Positions 2,980-19,414 of a stretch of 44,475 nt of DNA are shown piece by piece. This DNA comes from Acidobacteriota bacterium (GTDB lineage Bacteria > Acidobacteriota > Vicinamibacteria > Fen-336). The stretch covers positions 1-44,475 of the forward strand of contig QHVJ01000028.1 in assembly GCA_003222275.1 (NCBI GenBank), in the 5' to 3' direction. The notes under the pieces are model-generated. The model did no database searches, was not told the DNA's origin, and saw nothing but the letters and a program-made list of their open reading frames with translations. Position 1 is the stretch's first letter. Each line of letters opens with the position of its first letter. The translations under genes were made by a program, and so were the position numbers.

Positions 2980-3104
2980 CGCGTATGAGAGCGTCCGGCG
3001 CGCGCAGCGGAGCGTCTCCTCGGCCGTGTGGCGGCGGATTCACTCCGTCGCCACACGTTTCATGACGGCCTGCGCGAAGCGGAGCGCGCCGCATCCGGAC
3101 TCAG
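2980..3104 (+). repeat. Dispersed intergenic hairpin repeat, family A copy R1 (core hairpin 3025-3057, loop TTCAC)
   Basis: About 115-125 bp clearly similar to 15756-15879; core cgtgtggcggcgga-ttcac-tccgtcgccacacg. Confidence 0.85.
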
Positions 3105-4669
3105 TGGGCCGGCTTCGCGGGCGCTTCCGTCTTCGCCGGCGGCGCCTCGGGCTCCTCGGTCCGGACCTGGAAGACCTCGGCGAACTCGTTGAGCGCGGCC
3201 TTGAGCTTCTCGGTCGGCTCGCCTTTCAGGTCCTTCTTCTCCGCGAGCTCCTTGAGCAGCGCCGCGTATCTCGCGTCCAGGAACGCGTACAGCTCCTTCT
3301 CGTAGCGGCGGCATTCCGACACCGGGTACCGGTCGAGGTAGCCGTTGGTGGCGGCGAAGATGATGACGACCTGCTTCTCCATGGGCAGCGGCTGATACTG
3401 GTCCTGCTTGAGGATCTCGGTCAGCCGCTCCCCCTTGGCCAGCATCTGCTGGGTGGCCTTGTCGAGGTCGGACCCGAACTGCGAAAAGGCGGCCAGCTCA
3501 CGGAACTGGGCCAGGTCCAGCCGGAGGCGGCCCGCGACCTGCTTCATGGCCTTGACCTGGGCCGACCCCCCGACGCGGGAGACGGAGTTGCCCACGTTGA
3601 TGGCGGGGCGGATCCCGGAGTTGAACAGGTCGCTCTCCAGGAAGATCTGGCCGTCCGTGATCGAGATGACGTTGGTGGGGATGTAGGCCGAGATGTCGCC
3701 GGCCTGCGTCTCGATCACGGGGATGGCGGTGAGGCTGCCCCCCCCCTTCTTGTCGTTGAGCTTGGCCGCCCGCTCCAGCAGGCGGCTGTGCAGATAGAAG
3801 ACGTCGCCGGGATAGGCCTCGCGACCGGGCGGACGCCGCAGCAGCAGCGAGACCTCGCGGTAGGCGGCGGCGTGCTTGGAGAGGTCGTCGTAGATGCAGA
3901 GGGCGTGCTGGCCGTTGTCCCGGAAGTATTCGCCGATGGCGCACCCCGCATAAGGCGCGATGTAGAGGAAAGGGGCGGGCTCCGAGGCGGAGGCGGACAC
4001 GACGATCGTGTGCCCCATCGCATCGAAGTCCTCGAGCGTCTTCACGACCTGCGCGACCGTGGAGCGCTTCTGGCCGATGGCCACGTAGATGCAGATGACG
4101 CCCTTGCCCTTCTGGTTGATGATCGTGTCGACGGCGAGGGCGGTCTTCCCCGTCTGCCGGTCGCCGATCACCAGCTCGCGCTGGCCCCGTCCGATGTTGA
4201 CCATGCTGTCGATGGCCTTGATGCCGGTCTCGAGCGGCTCCCGCACCGGCTGGCGTTCCACCACCCCGGGCGCGATCCGCTCGATGGGGGAGTATTGCTT
4301 CGTCGCCGCCGGACCGCGGCCGTCCACGGGAAGGCCGAGCGCGTTGACGACCCGCCCCACCAGCTCCTCCCCCACCGGTACCGACATGATCCGGCGGGTG
4401 CGCTTGACCTCGTCGCCTTCCTTGATCTCGCTCGACTCGCCGAGGAGCACCGCTCCCACCGAGTCCTCCTCCAGGTTGAGGGCGATGGCGGTGACGCCGT
4501 GGGGCAGCTCGAGCAGCTCCCCCGCCATGCAACGCTCCAGCCCGTGGAGCCGCGCGATGCCGTCTCCCACCGAGAGGACGGTGCCGACCTCGGCCACGTC
4601 CACTCCCGCGGAGAATCCGCCCAGCTGCTCGCGGATGATCCGGCTGATCTCGTCGGCACGAATGTCCAT
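3101..4669 (-). CDS. atpA: F0F1 ATP synthase subunit alpha
   Basis: [19 protein letters not shown]..., [20 protein letters not shown], full-length homology by eye. Confidence 0.98.
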
Positions 4670-4675
4670 GATCCG

Positions 4676-5227
4676 CTAGCTCCTGGTCTCGCCTTTGAGC
4701 GTGCGGCGCAGGGCCTGCAGGCGGCCCCGGACCGTGCCGTCATAGATCTGGCCGCCCATCTTGAGCAAGACGCCCCCGATGACTTCGGGTTCGTTCTTCT
4801 CGCTCAGCTCGGCGGTGAGGCCGGTCGTCTTCTGGATCGCCTGCTCCAGCGCGCGCACGAGCGCCTCGTCGAGAGGCACGGCGGTCACGGCCTCCGCCGT
4901 CACCACGCCCCGCCGCGCGTTCCACTGCGCGGTATAGGAGCGCTCCACCTGCGGGAGCAGCGAGGTCAGCTCGCGCGCGACGAGCAGCTCGAGGAATCCC
5001 CGGACCAGCTCGGGAGCGGAGGCGAACACGGCGGCCACGATCCTCTTCCGGCGGTCGACAGAGAGGGCCGGGTTGGAAAGGGCGGACTGCAGCTCCGGAA
5101 GATCATGGAGCGCGCCCACCGCCTGCCGCAGGCCGGTCTGGACCACCGCGGCCGCGTCCTTCTTCTCCGCCACGTCGAGCAGCGCCCGCGCCATGCGCCG
5201 GGCCGCCGCCGGCCCGCCCGTTCTCAC
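4676..5227 (-). CDS. atpH: F0F1 ATP synthase subunit delta
   Basis: ARRMARALLDVAEKKDAAAVVQTGL...IGGVLLKMGGQIYDGTVRGRLQALRRTL; upstream of atpA. Confidence 0.93.
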   Translation of the reverse strand: MRTGGPAAARRMARALLDVAEKKDAAAVVQTGLRQAVGALHDLPELQSALSNPALSVDRRKRIVAAVFASAPELVRGFLELLVARELTSLLPQVERSYTAQWNARRGVVTAEAVTAVPLDEALVRALEQAIQKTTGLTAELSEKNEPEVIGGVLLKMGGQIYDGTVRGRLQALRRTLKGETRS

Positions 5228-5366
5228 GTCGACCTTCCGTGGTGGTTGAGCATCGGTCGCTATCCTCTGGCCTGGGCTCTCAAAACCGGGCGTGGGTATT
5301 CGATAAAGCGCGGGAGGTTATCACGCGGCGCGCGCGCGAGTCAAAGCTTCGCGTGCGCGCGGAAAC

Positions 5367-6413
5367 TCAGACGATCACGACCTGTCGGTGACTGCGCGCG
5401 AGGGCGCGGCCGACGGTGCGAGCCTCGGGCAGCTCGGCGAGGAGCGCCGATGCTTCCGCCTCCGGGAGAAGCAAGAACAGGCCGCCCGAGGTCTGGGGGT
5501 CGTAGAGCAGCGCCTTCATCTCGTCGCCGGGATCGACGCGGTACTCCACCTCCGGCTCGAACTGCCGGCGGTTGGCCTTCAGTCCCGCGGGCTGGAAACG
5601 AAGGGCCAGATCGCCGGCGCGCGGCAGGAGCGGCAGGTCGGAGGCTCGGATCTCGAGCGTCAGCCTGCTCTGCCGCGCGACGGCCGAAGCGTGCCCGACG
5701 AGCCCGAAGCCGGTGATGTCGGTGGCGGCGGTGACGCCGTGGCGCAGGGCGGCCGCGGCCGCGTCGCGGTTCAAGCGGGACATGCTGTCCGTGGCCGCCG
5801 TCACCGATTCCTCCGGGGCCTTTCCCGCCTTGAGCGCGGTCGCGATCACGCCGGTGCCCAGCGGCTTGGTGAGGACCAGGATCTCTCCCCCCCGGCCGCC
5901 CGCGTTGGTCAGGATCCGCTGCGGGTCGATGAGGCCGGTGATCGCGTAGCCGAACTTGATCTCGGGGTCGCGCACGCTATGGCCGCCGAGGAGGGCGCAG
6001 CCCGCCTCGGCGAGCTTTATCGCGCCGCCGCGCACGATGGCCGCCGCCCATTCGGCCGGGAAGTCCGTCTCCGGGAACGCGGCGATCGAGAGGGCGGAGA
6101 GCGGCCGCCCGCCCATCGCGTAGACGTCCGACAGCGCGTTGGCGGCCGCGATCGCCCCGAACGCCTCGGGGTCGTCCACGACCGGCGTGAAGAAGTCCAC
6201 CGTCTGCACGAGCGCCGTCTTGTCGTCGAGCCGGAACACACCGGCATCGTCCCCGGTGCGGTGGTCGATCAGCACGCGGGGGTCGTCGTTGACGGGAAGG
6301 GCGCTCAGGACCTGAGCGAGCTCAGCGGGGCCGAGCTTGCTCGCTCAACCGGCGCACGACACGCGCTCGGTCAGCCGGCGGATCCGCTGCCGGTCGTCGG
6401 CCGAGTCGGCCAT
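5367..6413 (-). CDS. selD: Selenide, water dikinase with in-frame UGA read as selenocysteine at codon 23
   Basis: The ORF track shows only 5367-6275. Upstream in the same frame: ATG(6411-6413) MADSADDRQRIRRLTERVSCAG[TGA]ASKLGPAELAQVLSALPVNDDPRVLIDHRTGDDAGVFRL..., with the TGA at the catalytic Cys/Sec position of SelD. Confidence 0.93.
6313..6347 (-). promoter_or_regulatory. Putative bacterial SECIS hairpin directly at the selD UGA
   Basis: Minus strand TGAGCGAGC-AAGCTCGGCCCCGCTGA-GCTCGCTCA: perfect 9-bp inverted repeat starting with the TGA. Confidence 0.75.
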
Positions 6414-6448
6414 CGCGACCTCCTATAGAAAGTACTATATTCAGAAGG

Positions 6449-6865
6449 TCAGGAGCGGCGGTCGGGCCCCCCGGCGAGTACGACCGAGGGCAGGGGGAGG
6501 ATGGAGCTGGAGGCCTTGGGCAGCCCCCCCATGTCGCACTGCCCCGAGAAGATCGCTCCCTCCTCGATGACGAGCTTCGGGGAGACGAGGCTGGCCTGGA
6601 CCTTGGACCCTGCGAGCAGCTCGATGCGCTGGCGGCCGTTCACGCGGCCGGTGACGGTGCCTCGGATCGACACCACGCCGCAGTCGATCTCGGCGTCGAC
6701 CTTGCCCGACTCCCCCACGATGAGGGTGTGCTCGGAGACGACCTTGCCCGTGAGCCGGCCGTCGATGCGGAAGGTGTCCTGGAAGCGCAGCTCGCCGTGG
6801 AACTCCGTGCCTTCGTCCATGAAGCCATTGAGGTCCTCGCTGGGCAATCCCTTCAGCTTGATCAT
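6449..6865 (-). CDS. Bactofilin family cytoskeletal protein
   Basis: EFHGELRFQDTFRIDGRLTGKVVSEHTLIVGESGKVDAEIDCGVVSIRGTVTGRVNGRQRIELLAGSKVQASLVSPKLVIEEGAIFSGQC. Confidence 0.93.
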   Translation of the reverse strand: MIKLKGLPSEDLNGFMDEGTEFHGELRFQDTFRIDGRLTGKVVSEHTLIVGESGKVDAEIDCGVVSIRGTVTGRVNGRQRIELLAGSKVQASLVSPKLVIEEGAIFSGQCDMGGLPKASSSILPLPSVVLAGGPDRRS

Positions 6866-6870
6866 TAGAT

Positions 6871-6942
6871 CGCTCGCGCGGAGTGAATCCGCGCTCGCTC
6901 GTTTAAGCCGGGGGGCACCCTGCGGTCCCCCCCGGACCCCCC
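6871..6942 (+). repeat. Dispersed intergenic hairpin repeat, family B copy R3
   Basis: 72 nt, about 67 positions identical to the reverse complement of 8646-8716; core hairpin gcgcgga-gtgaa-tccgcgc at 6876-6894. Confidence 0.9.
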
Positions 6943-6976
6943 ACGGTCCGCAGGTAAGAAGGTTAGCACGCCCGCC

Positions 6977-7831
6977 CTATCTTCCGCGCCCGGCGCGGAG
7001 CAGCAGCTCGTAGATACGCTGCAGCTCGGCTTCCGTCGCGAACGAAACGCGAAGCGTACCCGCCTTGCCCCGCCGCACGATCTGGACCCGCGTCCCCAGC
7101 GCCGCCCGCAGGCGCTCCTCGGCCGCCCGCGTGTTGGGGTCGCGGTGGCCGCTCCGGCGCGAGCGCGGCGCGCGCTGCAGGGCCACGCGGCGTTCGACCT
7201 CCCGCACCGACAACCCCTTGCGCACGGCTTCCCGGGCCAGGGCGAGCTGGTCCTCGGTCCGCTCGAGGGCGAGGAGCGCCCGGCCGTGTCCCGCGTCGAG
7301 GCGGCCGCCGGCGATCATCTCCCTCACCTCCGCCGGGAGCCGGAGCAGGCGCACGGTATTCGCGATCGTGGAGCGGTCGCGGCCGACCTTGCGCGCGACG
7401 TCCTCCTGGGTGAGGCGGAACTCGTCGTGCAGGCGCTGGAAGGCCTGGGCCTCCTCGAGCGGCGACAGCTCCTCGCGCTGGATGTTCTCGACGAGGGCCA
7501 GCTCGAGCAGCCGGTCGTCGGGCACGTCGCGTATCACCACCGGAACCGTGGCCAGCCCCAGGCGCTGCGCGGCCCGCCACCGCCGCTCGCCGGCGATGAT
7601 CTGGTAGTGCCCTCCGGCGCGGCGGACGAGCAGCGGCTGGATCATCCCGCTCTCGCGGATGGACGCGGCCAGCTCCTCGAGCCGGGCCGGCTCCATCACC
7701 GTGCGCGGCTGGAAGGGATTGGCCTCCAGCCGGTCGGGGCTGACGTGGAGCGTCGCCTCCTCGACGGACGGCGACGGCTCAGGATCGGGCAGGAGAGCGG
7801 AGAGCCCCTTGCCCAGCGCCTTTCTTTTCAT
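6977..7831 (-). CDS. parB: Chromosome partitioning protein ParB
   Basis: MKRKALGKGLSALLPD..., NPFQPRTVMEPARLEELAASI, GERRWRAAQRLGL, VARKVGRDRSTIANTVRLLRLP. Confidence 0.97.
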   Translation of the reverse strand: MKRKALGKGLSALLPDPEPSPSVEEATLHVSPDRLEANPFQPRTVMEPARLEELAASIRESGMIQPLLVRRAGGHYQIIAGERRWRAAQRLGLATVPVVIRDVPDDRLLELALVENIQREELSPLEEAQAFQRLHDEFRLTQEDVARKVGRDRSTIANTVRLLRLPAEVREMIAGGRLDAGHGRALLALERTEDQLALAREAVRKGLSVREVERRVALQRAPRSRRSGHRDPNTRAAEERLRAALGTRVQIVRRGKAGTLRVSFATEAELQRIYELLLRAGRGR

Positions 7832-8585
7832 GGGCCATCACTTCCTTGGCCAGCTCCAGGTACGCCTCGGCGCCCCGCGAGCGGATGTCATAGAGGAGGA
7901 TCGGCTTGCCGAAACTGGGGGCCTCCCCCAGCCGGATGCTCCGCGGGATCACGGTGCGGAAGACCTTGTCCTTGAAATGGAGACGGATCTCGCCCGCCAC
8001 CTGCTGGGTGAGGTTGGTGCGGTCGTCGACCATCGTGAGCAGCACGCCCTCGACGTCGAGGGCGGGGTTGAGCGAGCGCTGGACGCGGCGCAGCGTGTTC
8101 ATCAGCTCCGAGATGCCTTCCAGGGCGAAGTACTCGCATTGCAGCGGCACGAGCAGGCGGTCGGCGGCGGCGAGCGCGTTCACCGTCAGCAGCCCCAGGC
8201 TCGGCGGGCAATCGATGAAGACGTAATCGTAACGCGCGGCCACCGGAGCGAGTGCCTCCTTGAGCCGATACTCCCGCGCCAGCATCGGAACCAGCTCCAC
8301 TTCGGCGCCCGTGAGGTTGCGGTCGGAGGGCGCGAGCGTCAGGTGGGGAAGGTCGGTCGGCAGGAGGATGTCCTCCAGCGGGTGCTGATCGATGAGGGCG
8401 CTGTACAGGCTGGGGCGTTTCTCGGCCGACCGCCGGCCCAGCCCCGAGGTGAGGTTGCCCTGGGGATCCGCGTCGACGACCAGCACCTTGCGCTCGGCCG
8501 CGGCCAGGCTGGCCCCGAGGTTGATGGCAGTGGTGGTCTTTCCCACCCCACCTTTCTGGTTGGCCACCGCGATGACGCGTCCCAC
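7779..8585 (-). CDS. parA: Chromosome partitioning ATPase ParA (Soj)
   Basis: MGRVIAVANQKGGVGKTTTAINLGASLA...DADPQGNLTSGLG; overlaps the parB start by about 53 nt. Confidence 0.97.
   Translation of the reverse strand: MGRVIAVANQKGGVGKTTTAINLGASLAAAERKVLVVDADPQGNLTSGLGRRSAEKRPSLYSALIDQHPLEDILLPTDLPHLTLAPSDRNLTGAEVELVPMLAREYRLKEALAPVAARYDYVFIDCPPSLGLLTVNALAAADRLLVPLQCEYFALEGISELMNTLRRVQRSLNPALDVEGVLLTMVDDRTNLTQQVAGEIRLHFKDKVFRTVIPRSIRLGEAPSFGKPILLYDIRSRGAEAYLELAKEVMAHEKKGAGQGALRSPARS

Positions 8586-16951: not shown

Positions 16952-19414
<2,463 letters not shown>

Follow-up and report, generated by a model that had tools for sequence, protein, structure and literature searches.

The selD locus and its reading frame

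The window, by which we mean the entire 44,475-nucleotide stretch of acidobacterial DNA analyzed here, is contig C79 of a 6.76-Mb, 628-contig MAG with a completeness of 94% and a contamination of 3.4%. This MAG is Vicinamibacteria-like, the named genomes closest to it being Vicinamibacteria/Acidobacteria MAGs. The selD block of the window (3101-8585, minus strand) has chromosome-partition-like genes (parA and parB) and a bactofilin-like gene on one side of selD and atpH/atpA-like genes on the other, all named from sequence; the Rfam search returned no match in the window. The features considered below are:

3101-4669, minus strand: atpA-like gene, after the atpH-like gene; named from sequence
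4676-5227, minus strand: atpH-like gene, downstream of selD, syntenic in L020-L031 and other relatives; named from sequence
5367-6413, minus strand: selD, selenide water dikinase (selenophosphate synthetase), 348 aa with a predicted Sec at residue 23, from TIGR00476 and translation with TGA as U
6302-6318, minus strand: predicted SECIS hairpin (site B), CGCUCAG-GUC-CUGAGCG, 7 bp, loop GUC at +33 nt, -9.1 kcal/mol, identified by covariation
6313-6347, minus strand: 9-bp stem of the original prediction, a real complementarity and not a conserved structure
6319-6337, minus strand: hairpin AGCUCGGC-CCC-GCUGAGCU, the second with covariation, which separates the UGA from the SECIS and is proposed to act as a spacer
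6345-6347, minus strand: in-frame UGA, predicted Sec23, aligned with Cys17 of E. coli SelD
6419-6424, minus strand: Shine-Dalgarno sequence AGGAGG, from sequence, a good match 5 nt 5' of the ATG at 6413
6449-6865, minus strand: bactofilin-like gene, upstream of selD, syntenic in L020-L029; named from sequence

The order parA-parB-bactofilin-like-selD-atpH-atpA is kept in the close relatives L020-L029, and the order parAB...selD...atpHA recurs in many other relatives, including those with a Cys-bearing SelD (L021, L069 and L081).

On the minus strand the selD frame opens with an ATG at 6411-6413, continues through a single TGA, codon 23, at 6345-6347 and closes with a TGA stop at 5367-5369, with the residues ...LTERVSCAG-U-ASKLGPAEL... 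surrounding the read-through position. Sequence and translation thus agree with the original prediction that the frame extends through this TGA to the upstream ATG. Its claim that standard gene callers truncate selD at 6275 is likewise borne out by the mechanical ORF (translation table 11), which spans 5367-6275, starts with GTG and encodes 302 aa. A genome-wide reassignment of UGA is rejected because selD itself terminates with TGA.

The UGA occupies the catalytic site of SelD

The read-through protein is recognized over its full length by the TIGR00476 selD model with 350.7 bits (cut-off 125; E 6.6e-105), and it also matches the Pfam AIRS and AIRS_C domains. The closest solved chains are 3u0o and 2yye from the PDB: the alignment matches residue 23 to residue 17 of 3u0o (AGCGCK), which we take to be the catalytic Cys17 of E. 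coli, and K26 to K20. The N-terminal loop accordingly holds the catalytic Cys/Sec position together with the Lys that follows it, and the UGA falls where it had been predicted to fall. The protein shares with Sec-containing SelD/SPS2 (EC 2.7.9.3) the TIGR00476 equivalog assignment, the AIRS domains, a UGA at the catalytic Cys site, a Lys three residues after Sec, a bSECIS within the coding sequence and the existence of Cys orthologs; it differs in that the apical loop of the SECIS lies +33 nt from the UGA, with another conserved hairpin ahead of it. Among prokaryotic selenoprotein families, Sec-containing SelD is described as second in how widespread it is (PMC13188914), its bSECIS is already well described (PMC4561486, PMC13188914), and acidobacterial selenoproteins were counted as early as 2006 (PMC1794560). 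A literature search by titles among open-access papers found no study of the selD SECIS of this clade.

Of the 73 aligned relatives that cover the site, 59 have TGA, 10 have TGC and 4 have TGT. This mixture, in which a UGA aligns with Cys in homologs, is the alternation of Cys and Sec that a selenoprotein should show, and about 10 changes are needed to account for the Cys label on a 92-row SelD tree. SelD genes with a single TGA are also present in genomes of the same genus (G001) and of the same family. A reading of the UGA as a real stop, or as a frame-breaking mutation or error, with the protein starting at GTG 6275, would accord with the 302-aa ORF predicted under table 11 and with the lack of a recognizable tRNA-Sec in the assembled MAG (see below). 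However, the TGA is shared with those 59 relatives and with the same-genus genome, the residues on either side of it are conserved, the Shine-Dalgarno sequence precedes 6413 and the short form is devoid of the catalytic loop; we consider this reading extremely improbable.

Several relatives, including L122 and L123, have long SelD frames (~750-1200 aa) without a UGA, which are probably the known NADH-dehydrogenase-type SelD fusions; one genome (G012) has a UGA-containing SelD besides such a long frame. Acidobacterial-type SelD was also observed in MAGs labeled as Pseudomonadota, Burkholderiaceae/Burkholderiales or Woeseiaceae (L032, L048, L051, L092 and L093), reflecting either horizontal transfer or mis-binned contigs.

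Selenocysteine machinery and other predicted selenoprotein genes

Family, DNA and pattern searches of the MAG looked for the Sec-decoding machinery and further selenoproteins, a check that the original prediction had proposed. These recovered selA on contig C370 (E 1.2e-132) and one full-length selB on contig C574 (E 1.8e-102) with a SelB-wing_3 winged-helix domain. A second SelB-like match (C217:42-911), next to an EF-G-like frame, looks like EF-Tu by sequence and was not counted as SelB. The selU gene was not found in the MAG; of the two uses of selenophosphate, Sec and selU, this leaves Sec as its likely destination.

Among the genes found by the same searches are two of the formate dehydrogenase alpha type whose Sec motif contains a UGA, namely C31:1234-4170 (L153), with the motif ...TQARV-U-HGPTVASLAATFGRGAMTN, and C518:165-953 (L154), with the motif ...NQARI-U-HSSSVPGLGTRLGRGAATM, each then followed by a potential hairpin. 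As no formate dehydrogenase match in the MAG reaches the TIGR01591 cut-off, they are described as FDH-type genes and not as certified equivalogs. With selD, this brings the predicted selenoprotein genes of the genome to at least three. The C31 and C518 genes share the ARVUHG-type motif of FdhA formate dehydrogenase selenoproteins and would use the same decoding machinery as SelD; they differ from selD in that their putative SECIS loops, as read from the sequences, lie ~18-19 nt after the UGA. Against this evidence it may be held that, at 3.4% contamination, the contigs with selA, selB and fdhA could in principle be foreign. Separately, the MAG has three different tRNA-Ser(UGA) genes (L002, L003 and L004, on C306, C430 and C328), which hints that the bin includes some foreign contigs.

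The component that was not recovered is tRNA-Sec (selC): neither the covariance model nor a pattern search for the anticodon and T-loop found one in the MAG, and eight weak candidates were all assigned by ARAGORN to tRNA-Ser or tRNA-Leu. The same-genus genome G001 does encode a tRNA-Sec (72.8 bits, ARAGORN anticodon tca), which adjoins an M48-type peptidase gene and an integrase-like frame (both named from sequence reading). The peptidase region of G001 is carried by contig C581 (17,089 bp) of our MAG, where the match ends at 17,053, and this contig stops ~240 bp before the place matching the G001 tRNA-Sec. Based on this synteny, the absence of tRNA-Sec is most likely an assembly gap. The integrase-like frame (L103, G001:C45 1-1160) lies directly beside the tRNA-Sec in G001, which may be an integration site there; an integration at this tRNA could have caused the assembly break in the genome of the window. 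Across 60 genomes, with tRNA-Sec called at 59 bits or more, a cut-off immediately over a range (53 to 59) in which no scores fell, the tRNA was present in 40 of the 47 genomes with SelD as against 2 of the 13 without it (Fisher p 5e-6).

The failure of both searches would also agree with a true loss of selC, with another tRNA reading through the UGA or with its decoding in decay. Against such a loss, C581 breaks off just short of the syntenic site, selA, selB and three UGA-containing genes are present and the same-genus genome has the tRNA, making it exceedingly unlikely in our estimate. A complete genome lacking selA, selB or selC, named at the outset as an observation that would overturn Sec decoding, is not what we have here: the MAG has no recognizable tRNA-Sec, but it is incomplete, and synteny points to an assembly gap as the likeliest cause.

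A covarying putative SECIS hairpin downstream of the UGA

Under the bSECIS model, the hairpin has a loop of 3-9 nt, a stem of 4-16 bp and a G in the first two loop positions (PMC13188914); it lies 16-37 nt from the UGA and has an energy of at most -7.5 (PMC13188914). The hairpin at 6302-6318 agrees with this on each count (loop GUC, 7 bp, 33 nt, -9.1 kcal/mol), and sits ~30 bases beyond the element originally proposed. That element was a perfect 9-bp stem in the 35 nt starting at the UGA (6347-6313), and the complementarity, TGAGCGAGC-N17-GCTCGCTCA, is indeed there; as a SECIS, however, it breaks the bSECIS rules, with a 17-nt loop beginning with AA, no G at its start and a distance of 6 nt from the UGA.

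The two structures were compared in an alignment numbered with the T of the UGA as column 0, the coding sequences being gap-free in this region. In the hairpins 10-17/21-28 (6319-6337) and 30-35/39-44 (within 6302-6318), 94.4% of cells are paired, a percentage inflated by the choice of the members of this set (A1) partly for at least 5/6 pairs in the 30-44 hairpin, and the two hairpins show 29 double changes against 8.9 in shuffles; their covariation score was reached by 0 of 500 shuffles. Set A1 also includes L124 (4 pairs) and omits L091, which has its first hairpin displaced by one; except for this L091 row, the 10-28 hairpin played no part in the selection. This choice has less bearing on the compensatory changes and on the poor showing of the overlapping stem. 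Without prompting, RNAalifold recovered the core of both hairpins along with a further pair 29-45, which brings the SECIS hairpin to 7 bp. The key pair 32-42 of the SECIS (6315/6305) is UA, CG or GC, with the CG state requiring at least 4 separate changes on the tree: an Ala codon GCU, GCC or GCG pairs with a Ser, Gly or Arg codon four codons on (AQVLS, AQVLG or AQVLR), so that the amino acid shifts in step with a synonymous change of the Ala codon. In the second hairpin, the pair 6331/6325 covaries between CG and GC.

The stem 0-8/26-34, on the other hand, shows no covariation beyond shuffles (344 of 500 score at least as high), and its pair A(6345)-U(6315), at columns 2-32, which uses the A of the UGA, is broken in 13 of 32 sequences. 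Aside from its perfect complementarity in the window, it is favored by being complete in 16 of 39 site-B sequences, where synonymous-codon shuffles average 0.05; this excess is explicable by the columns that it shares with the two covarying hairpins, one of which it excludes, columns 31-35 being common to both. We consider a SECIS formed by the stem at the UGA very improbable.

Single-sequence folding near the UGA, another proposed check, gave energies only moderately below those of dinucleotide shuffles (z -1.78 for the 71-nt region and -2.81 for the 35 nt from the UGA alone), and neither fold has the 9-bp stem as its minimum-energy structure. Speaking against the site preferred here, the SECIS hairpin at 6302-6318 is also not the minimum-energy structure in the free 71-nt fold; it becomes so when the 5' nucleotides are withheld, and the second hairpin folds together with it once the initial nucleotides that follow the UGA are left out.

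A bSECIS-type hairpin also tracks the codon. In a less selective test, a mechanical scan for hairpins of at least 6 bp with a loop of 3-9 nt, a G in the first two loop positions and a spacing of 16-37 nt detected one in 72 of 73 UGA orthologs versus 3 of 19 Cys orthologs (p 5e-14, which is only indicative as the orthologs are related). Within the clade of this selD, the Cys orthologs (L021, L069, L081, L132, L139 and L128, the last matching L021 at all 51 nt compared) retain only 2-4 of the 6 pairs of the 30-44 hairpin.

In E. coli fdhF, the SECIS lies in the coding region downstream of the UGA, with a small apical loop preceded by G, and is read by the C-terminal winged-helix domains of SelB; the base of the hairpin is ~11 nt after the UGA. 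The selD hairpin shares this location, a small G-preceded apical loop (CAGGUC.., giving an fdhF-like apical GGUC) and a SelB with C-terminal winged-helix domains, and differs in that its base is 26 nt after the UGA, with an extra hairpin in between.

Two SECIS registers across acidobacterial clades

Among the 73 UGA rows on the tree, 39 place the hairpin at columns 30-44 (Vicinamibacteria and others) and 30 at columns 16-32 (Terriglobia/Bryobacterales type), where the loop of the same gene is +20 nt from the UGA, unlike in the selD studied here, and the hairpins are of the form GUCCAAA-GGU-UUUGGAC or GUCCGGC-GGU-GCUGGAC. Full hairpins number 34 and 19 in these registers, as against synonymous-codon shuffle means of 1.3 and 0.04, all these counts being subject to the same caution on selection as set A1. 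The two registers follow the SelD tree. As judged from these sequences, the placement of the SECIS at +20 or +33 nt in the same gene by different acidobacterial clades appears to be mildly novel.

Only one SelB gene was found in the genome, while the FDH-type hairpins lie ~18-19 nt and that of selD 33 nt from the UGA, which suggests that the extra hairpin at 6319-6337 may act as a foldable spacer. By extension, the Vicinamibacteria-type selD SECIS may be a two-hairpin unit, in which the hairpin with the G-less loop folds away ~19 nt for a SelB that also reads the FDH-type genes, the functional SECIS having moved between the +20 and +33 registers across clades; we offer this extended model tentatively, as a possibility that is somewhat unlikely to hold in full.

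Proposed decoding of selD and its implications

We conclude with high confidence that this gene encodes a standard Sec-containing SelD, in which Sec23 is specified by the UGA and directed by the SECIS hairpin at 6302-6318. The decoding of this UGA as Sec, as originally predicted, is strongly supported by the alignment, the UGA/Cys alternation, selA and selB, the tRNA-Sec of G001 and the UGA-containing FDH-type genes; the lack of a tRNA-Sec in the MAG itself is a point that counts against it. Translation would start at the ATG at 6413. From the arrangement of codon and hairpin, we infer that SelB-GTP-Sec-tRNA-Sec bound at the SECIS (6318-6302, apical GUC) competes with release factor at the UGA (6347-6345), with the hairpin at 6337-6319 probably shortening the effective 33-nt distance between them, and that Sec23 is inserted in the selenium-binding loop AG-U-ASK. 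The finished SelD is predicted to convert selenide and ATP to selenophosphate for SelA, which would thus serve the synthesis of SelD itself and of at least two Sec-containing FDH-type enzymes.

These observations correct the annotation of selD, as its standard truncation removes the catalytic residue. They further indicate that Sec decoding of the selD UGA probably extends over several classes of the Acidobacteriota, a phylum abundant in soils, and that switches between Sec and Cys recur on the SelD gene tree. The ortholog set, in which the SECIS is kept with UGA and usually lost with Cys, is a natural test of the tolerance of SelB for the distance between codon and hairpin.
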